Below are positions 53,561-55,308 of a DNA stretch of 64,000 nt, piece after piece; position 1 is the stretch's first letter; every line of letters starts with the position of its first letter. Both the position numbers and the translations under genes were made by a program. The DNA comes from Methanococcus maripaludis (GTDB lineage: Archaea > AGJL01 > Methanococci > Methanococcales > Methanococcaceae). A model generated the notes under the pieces. The model had not been told where the DNA came from. It saw only the letters and a program-made list of their open reading frames with translations, and made no database searches. The stretch is taken from assembly GCF_013760955.1 (NCBI RefSeq), contig NZ_JACDUL010000001.1, forward strand, positions 314,340-378,339, read 5' to 3'.

Positions 53561-54190
53561 TTAAAGCATTTTTTCAATTTTTATCGAGTAATCGTCTTTA
53601 TTTTTTACAATTCCGATTATTTCAACATCTGCAAACTCTTCAATTGTTTTAAACGTTTCTTCATAGTACGGAACATCTTCAAGTTTATTGATACAGTTTA
53701 TAATAATTCCTTTTACCAAAATTCCTTTTTTTCGCAAATATTCAACTGACAATATTGTGTGGTTGATTGTTCCAAGATCGGGTCTTGCAACCAATACACA
53801 AGGTAAATTTAAATCTTTTATCAAATCTGCCATTAAATAATTTGTCACTATTGGAACGCAAACTCCACCGGCCCCTTCGACAATTAAATAATCGTGATTT
53901 TCCTTTAATTTTTGAAAAGATTCTTTTATTTTTTCGATATCTATTTCAAAATCTTCAACTTTTGCAGCAATGTTTGGAGATAGCGGATTTTTCAAGTTTA
54001 TCGGGTTTAATGTTTCAATACCTTCAGAAAGATTAAGTTCTTCTTTAGCATAGGTTGTATCCTCAACCCCGCCTGACTCGATAGGCTTCATATAACCAAC
54101 ATTTATGCCCCTTTCTTTCAAAATTTTTCCTAAAATTACTGAAACGTAGGTTTTTCCAACTCCAGTATCGGTTCCCGTTACAAATAGCGT
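53561..54190 (-). CDS. bioD: Dethiobiotin synthetase with ACG start
   Basis: Closes the ureido ring of biotin using ATP and CO2. From the ACG at 54190 the protein begins (M)[16 protein letters not shown], the exact family N-terminus with P-loop at residues 6-14. [10 protein letters not shown] (near residue 107-116) is also conserved. A TAA stop stands directly before the ACG in this frame. The first ordinary start, TTG at 54121, falls after the P-loop. SD GGGTG lies 6 nt before the ACG and overlaps the bioF stop codon. The length of 209 aa is then usual. Last gene of bioW-bioF-bioD. Confidence 0.85.
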
Positions 54191-54195
54191 TTAAA

Positions 54196-55308
54196 TCACC
54201 CATTGTTTATTTTTGAAATGCTTTCGCATAGGTATTCAAAATCTTCCTTTTTATTTTCTGCGGTTATACTTACTCTTATTCGTTCAGAACCTTTTTTAAC
54301 GGTCGGATAACGAATTCCAACACAAAATATCTTGTAATTTAAAAGTTCTTCTGAAATTTTTATCGATTTTTCCCCGAATAAAAATGGATATATTGGAGTA
54401 ATCTTTTCTTCCAGAATAAATCCTGAAGATTTAAAGATTTTGTTTGCAATATCGATATTTTTAGATAATTTATCCGTTAATTCACCTGATTTTATCAATT
54501 CAAAAGATTTAATACTCGCAGAAATTACTGCTGGAGGAAGTGCTGTTGAATAAATAAAACTTCTTGAAGTATTTATCAAATAATCGATTAATTCTTCAAT
54601 GCCAGTTACAAATCCACCAACCGTTCCAACTGCTTTTGAAAGGGTTCCTATTTGAATAATATTGTCAGTAGGTTTTATTTTGAAATGATGAAGTGTTCCT
54701 TTTCCCCCGCCCAAAACACCGGTTCCGTGTGCATCATCAAGTATCAAAACTGCATTATATTCGTCTGCTATTTTTTTTAATTTGTCTACTTGTGCAATAT
54801 CTCCATCCATACTGAATACTGCATCGGTTACAATGAATTTATTTTCATAATTTCGGTTTTCTTCCAAAATTTCGATTAAATTTGAAATATTATTGTGCGG
54901 ATAAATTTTTTTGTCAGCCCTTGAAAGTCGTATTCCATCAACTATTGATGCGTGATTTAATTCATCGCTCAAAATTAAATCTCCTTTTTTACAGAGTGAA
55001 CTTATAACTCCCAAATTTGCGCCATATCCTGAAGAATAAACCAGCGATTTTTCAGTTTCTTTGAACTTAGAAATTGTTTCTTCAAGTTTTTCATGGTTTA
55101 CGTTTCCAGAAGTTAATCTTGAACCTGTTGCCCCCGCACCGTATTTTAATCCATCATCGTATGCATTAATTACTTCTTTATTTTTTGATAAACCCAAATA
55201 ATCATTCGTAGAGAAGTTTAGTTCAATACCTACTTCCCCCCTTAATTTTCTATAGAGGTTTTGATGTTTTATCAAATCAAGCTCTTTTTTTAAGTTTTTC
55301 CGAAACAT
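54196..55308 (-). CDS. bioF: 8-Amino-7-oxononanoate synthase
   Basis: PLP enzyme condensing pimeloyl-CoA with alanine in biotin synthesis. 370 aa; NDYLGLSKNKEV (about 35-46), GAGATGSRLTSGN near 57-69, DDAHGTGVLGGGKG near 192-205, and the PLP lysine in GTLSKAVGTVGGF near 221-233. SD GGTG-CGTTT-ATG. The alternative, 2-amino-3-ketobutyrate CoA ligase, is unlikely given bioW and bioD on either side. Confidence 0.93.
   Translation of the reverse strand: MFRKNLKKELDLIKHQNLYRKLRGEVGIELNFSTNDYLGLSKNKEVINAYDDGLKYGAGATGSRLTSGNVNHEKLEETISKFKETEKSLVYSSGYGANLGVISSLCKKGDLILSDELNHASIVDGIRLSRADKKIYPHNNISNLIEILEENRNYENKFIVTDAVFSMDGDIAQVDKLKKIADEYNAVLILDDAHGTGVLGGGKGTLHHFKIKPTDNIIQIGTLSKAVGTVGGFVTGIEELIDYLINTSRSFIYSTALPPAVISASIKSFELIKSGELTDKLSKNIDIANKIFKSSGFILEEKITPIYPFLFGEKSIKISEELLNYKIFCVGIRYPTVKKGSERIRVSITAENKKEDFEYLCESISKINNG

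Follow-up and report, generated by a model that had tools for sequence, protein, structure and literature searches.

Where does translation of bioD begin in a genome of the Methanococcus maripaludis-like group, if the first canonical start codon of the gene lies well inside its coding sequence? The gene is located on the minus strand of a stretch of 64,000 nucleotides (the window) on contig C1 of a draft assembly of 1.76 Mb in 7 contigs. Read from an ACG codon at 54188..54190 (minus strand), the bioD frame gives a complete BioD (dethiobiotin synthase; 53561..54190, minus strand, 209 codons plus a stop at 53561), as identified by TIGR00347, PF13500 and homologues in the PDB. The TIGR00347 score was 199.3 bits against a cut-off of 83.3, with the match running from residue 3, and alignments with solved BioD structures begin at residue 2, so that the N-terminus is complete. 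The earliest ATG, GTG or TTG in the frame is a TTG at 54119..54121 (minus strand), which has no Shine-Dalgarno (SD) sequence and lies 3' of the Walker A motif GTDTGVGKT. The motif belongs to codons 2-23 (54122..54187, minus strand), located 5' of this first canonical start, and truncation to the TTG would cost BioD its beta-1 as well as its P-loop. An in-frame TAA (54191..54193, minus strand) directly abuts the ACG; therefore, no in-frame start lies farther 5' and no frameshift fusion enters the frame before the ACG.

The 5' neighbour of bioD is bioF (54196..55308, minus strand), which scored 422 bits with TIGR00858, slightly below the 426-bit cut-off, followed farther 5' by bioW (55317..56051, minus strand), encoding 6-carboxyhexanoate-CoA ligase (NF002360, 308 bits). 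The bioF/bioD junction reads AACAATGGGTGATTTAAACGCTATTTGTAACGGGAACCGATACTGG on the minus strand, with the core stretch AACAATGGGTGATTTAAACGCTATTTGTAACGGGAACC, and the TGA stop of bioF (54198-54196) lies 5 nt 5' of the bioD ACG. The rest of the biotin pathway was also found, with bioW and bioF adjoining bioD, bioA at C2:161832 and bioB at C1:66227. With the pathway complete, BioD is needed, and even a weak start has to supply enough of it.

An earlier, sequence-only reading of this DNA had placed the bioD start at 54190, ahead of the first normal start, had regarded it as a single-base change of ATG, and had proposed a comparison with related strains. In that comparison, the ACG and the preceding TAA were found to be identical in bioD of two other species, G002 (90% protein identity) and G001 (85%), and the 31-nt context GGGTGATTTAAACGCTATTTGTAACGGGAAC around the ACG was the same in all three species. 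ATG occupied exactly this position in all 13 readable outgroup genomes of the family (G003-G006 within the genus and nine in other genera), which represent four genera; throughout, one genome stood for each species. The ACG therefore has the marks of a near-cognate start on both sides, being kept in three species and replaced by ATG in the orthologues. No ATG, GTG or TTG comes earlier, and coding constraint reaches up to the ACG. Among the three species, nine of codons 2-23 are variable, and in all nine the change is synonymous, an outcome with a probability of about 1e-5 if the segment were untranslated. For the same codons dN was 0 and dS 0.35-0.55; for the remainder of the gene dN was 0.07-0.11 and dS about 0.65. 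Such purely synonymous variation indicates that translation in the bioD frame already covers the segment 5' of the first canonical start. No start earlier than the ACG is then possible, and no other codon matches the ATG of the outgroups. Frame, TAA and the constraint on codons 2-23 all agree with the placement that had been read from the window. As judged from these alignments, AUG most likely became ACG once, in the common ancestor of the M. maripaludis-like group, and the codon was kept thereafter.

It was pertinent to ascertain which signals place ribosomes at this codon. The tail of the 16S rRNA, GGATCACCTCCT, was located in the genome, and by this 3' end the GGTGAT at 54195..54200 (minus strand), which overlaps the bioF stop codon, is a perfect 6-nt match to the anti-SD. 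An SD overlapping the bioF stop, together with tight spacing to bioF, had been noticed in the sequence-only reading, and both were borne out by this match and the gap of +5 nt. The spacing between SD and start in bioD ranks second in frequency among 381 genes sampled from the genome, 113 of which have SD matches of at least 6 nt. We examined all 42 GGTGA-N4-6-ACG sites in the genome, and a long frame opens at the ACG in bioD alone, which makes the bioD site more than a chance match. In two other Methanococcus genomes it is an ATG that follows the GGTGAT, and a strong SD is therefore no special trait of the species with ACG. The idea that the SD was strengthened specifically to compensate for ACG is weakened by this combination of GGTGAT and ATG. 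The gap between bioF and bioD measures +5 nt in all three species with ACG as against +25 nt in G003. At the G003 bioD locus (L011) a weak GAGG precedes the ATG, and spacing, SD and start codon all differ together from those of the ACG species. The bioF-bioD pair falls within the distance that we took for coupled pairs (overlap, or a gap of up to about 10 nt). For one gene pair of Haloferax volcanii (PMC10666635), a distance of 13 nt lowered reinitiation by about 60%, and about 22 nt abolished it; by these limits, bioD would be well placed for reinitiation in Methanococcus.

We surveyed about 800 kb of the window genome against the syntenic stretches of G001 and G002 for other genes of this kind, using the pattern of synonymous and nonsynonymous differences together with the SD. 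Extension of BLAST matches past the first start was uninformative as a criterion, because the upstream sequence is similar too, and was replaced. Among 613 genes of at least 80 codons present in all three species, three combined a conserved non-canonical start with a conserved SD: bioD (ACG), a gene for an AK6/Fap7-like kinase (AUA) and a methyltransferase gene (AUC). In a 452-gene survey bioD was the best case. Other candidates were dropped because the codon was internal, because at least one of the three species lacked it, or because a canonical ATG adjoined it or lay in frame. The kinase gene (23608..24151, plus strand) starts with ATA and has the SD AGGTGA at 23598-23603, overlapping the upstream stop. 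We take it to be the unnamed second non-standard start that the sequence-only reading had counted in the 64 kb, and it is real. Its start position is ATA or ATT in 20 of 20 readable Methanococcaceae, two of which are ambiguous since an ATG directly follows, and ATG in all 11 sister-family genomes that could be read. As read from this distribution, AUA/AUU is an old, family-wide non-canonical start. The two cases in the window thus differ in age, the bioD ACG being confined to three species and the kinase AUA/AUU extending to the whole family. Relatives of the kinase with solved structures are a putative adenylate kinase (4cvn/4cw7) and adenylate kinase isoenzyme 6 (5jzv); AK6/Fap7 is a small-subunit maturation factor in other organisms.

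The methyltransferase of 286 aa (G000:C2:175410-176270; L293:15410-16270; minus strand; RrnaAD/Methyltransf_25 match) starts with ATC, and this codon and its SD (GGTGA, within GGGTGA) are conserved in G001 and G002. The first canonical start comes 38 codons 3' of the ATC, and the intervening segment carries 12 synonymous and 5 nonsynonymous differences. Its 5' side is non-coding or divergent sequence, with no co-directed coding gene ahead. Homologues at G004:C4:67197-68045, G005:C6:37669-38520 and G006:C3:39782-40630 are each reported with one TAA inside the match, which could be a difference in C-terminal length. The suggestion of the sequence-only reading that weak starts are tolerated was upheld. 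Its extension to translationally coupled genes held in part: bioD and the kinase gene lie tight behind a 5' gene, but the methyltransferase gene is uncoupled, so coupling is no requirement for a conserved non-canonical start.

Several other explanations of the bioD start have to be weighed. The ACG is a single base from ATG in a 7-contig draft, and a sequencing or assembly error with T as the real base had been suspected on reading the window. This can be practically dismissed, as the same ACG and context occur in two other, independent species' genomes at a dS of about 0.65, one of these genomes being a single contig. C-to-U editing of the mRNA, of which we know no case in archaea, would be compatible with the DNA data, and one change would turn ACG into AUG. 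It is nevertheless very improbable, being needless for explaining bioD and incapable of converting the AUA and AUC starts of the other two genes into AUG. Annotation programs restricted to ATG, GTG and TTG would pick the TTG at 54121, the first canonical start, and bioD might accordingly be decayed or give only a truncated protein. We consider this highly unlikely: the three species show zero nonsynonymous changes in codons 2-23, the remaining biotin pathway is intact, the TTG lacks an SD, and truncation removes a Walker A motif that aligns with solved BioD homologues. A frameshift from bioF was ruled out by the in-frame TAA before the ACG. Translation could instead begin at an out-of-frame ATG at the end of bioF (54203-54201, ATGGGTGATTTAAACG), which is conserved in the three species and relative to which the bioD frame is +1, and then shift into bioD. 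There is very little to recommend such a +1 shift, since that ATG has no SD, its frame ends after 11 codons in G002, and it is accounted for by the conserved C-terminus of bioF and the SD; moreover, no recognised +1 site was seen, and the chimeric N-terminus would differ from those of all the outgroups.

A stronger version of an ACG start, rather than an exclusive alternative to it, is that the codon has been selected for a regulatory effect, holding BioD low or making it responsive to initiation fidelity. The codon has persisted in three species even though C is most often lost by a change to T (27-31% at 4-fold sites) and AUG is generally favoured (PMC5622118). The AK6/Fap7-like kinase, related to a small-subunit maturation factor, has AUA/AUU family-wide, which would also fit such a role. 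Against this, 38% of the 4-fold C sites of the window genome are C in all three species, so retention of the ACG by itself is compatible with drift and is no proof of selection. RNA folding at the bioD start was unremarkable (z -1.6), with no regulatory structure seen there. Thus, we regard selection for a regulatory ACG as rather unlikely. It invites comparison with E. coli infC, which starts with AUU and is a bacterial near-cognate start. Both are functional genes with a start other than ATG, GTG or TTG behind an SD, conserved across species; bioD differs in its ACG, in the archaeal initiation of aIF1/aIF2 type, and in encoding a biotin enzyme and not an initiation factor. An autoregulated start as in infC does not fit bioD, whose product is by homology a biotin enzyme with no role in start discrimination.

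Initiation at the ACG remains the preferred reading. The frame, its conservation, purifying selection from codon 2, the SD and the ATG of the outgroups are observed. From these, bioD very probably starts at the ACG by means of the ordinary initiator tRNA, on ribosomes held by the SD and delivered from bioF, the codon having arisen once and been kept as a functional start. Termination at the bioF UGA, 5 nt 5', would deliver ribosomes to the ACG, and the GGTGAT would keep them placed over it. The ordinary initiator tRNA would then read ACG as Met with a mismatch at the middle base. The T-to-C change would have occurred once, in an ancestor of at least three species, and ACG would have been retained as a working start of probably low yield. 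We infer initiation at the ACG itself, Met as first residue, the coupling and the low yield from sequence comparison. The weak ACG probably suffices thanks to its strong SD and to reinitiation after termination at bioF. In E. coli reporters, ACG belonged to a group that yielded 0.1-1.5% of ATG in one assay (PMC6925171), so either little BioD is required or ACG is a better start in Methanococcus. By this analogy, too little BioD might be made without help from archaeal initiation or from coupling.

Known cases share parts of this arrangement. Of 61,358 ancestral AUG starts, Belinky et al. 2017 reported switches to GUG (363), UUG (113), CUG (2) and AUU (1), and ACG is absent among the switches listed (PMC5622118); bioD resembles these in the change from AUG to a weaker start with a good SD. 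The input to that study was probably annotated starts, so that cases like ACG may have been under-counted. Archaeal termination-reinitiation (PMC6728339, PMC10666635) is similar in having stop and start within 5 nt and the SD over the stop, whereas bioD has an ACG start and its coupling is putative. In yeast ALA1 (PMC2909995), too, ACG is the start of a genuine protein, under initiation of the eIF2 type; ALA1, however, relies on eukaryotic scanning with sequence context, and bioD on placement by an SD.

The start codons accepted by common gene finders are, to our knowledge, limited to AUG, GUG and UUG. A review of archaeal initiation also names just these three (PMC7531240), and in the literature that we searched, within the scope of one library, nothing on point was found on ACG starts in archaea. 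Non-AUG starts as such are already known; what appears to be new is a species-conserved archaeal ACG start with a visible AUG ancestor, within a small set of near-cognate starts. On the sequence evidence, the bioD ACG appears to be an unusual start signal that has long been kept, and not a sequencing error or the mark of a broken gene. We tentatively suggest, as a possibility that we would not call probable, that the small set of near-cognate-start genes in Methanococcaceae (ACG, AUA/AUU and AUC) are SD-placed set-points of low or fidelity-sensitive translation, including an AK6/Fap7-like kinase that could feed back on initiation. With a conserved ACG in bioD and family-wide AUA/AUU in the kinase gene, such genes are either overlooked or annotated short. 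They also provide natural tests, in a methanogen amenable to genetics, of how the eukaryote-like start selection of archaea (aIF1, aIF2) deals with near-cognate codons.
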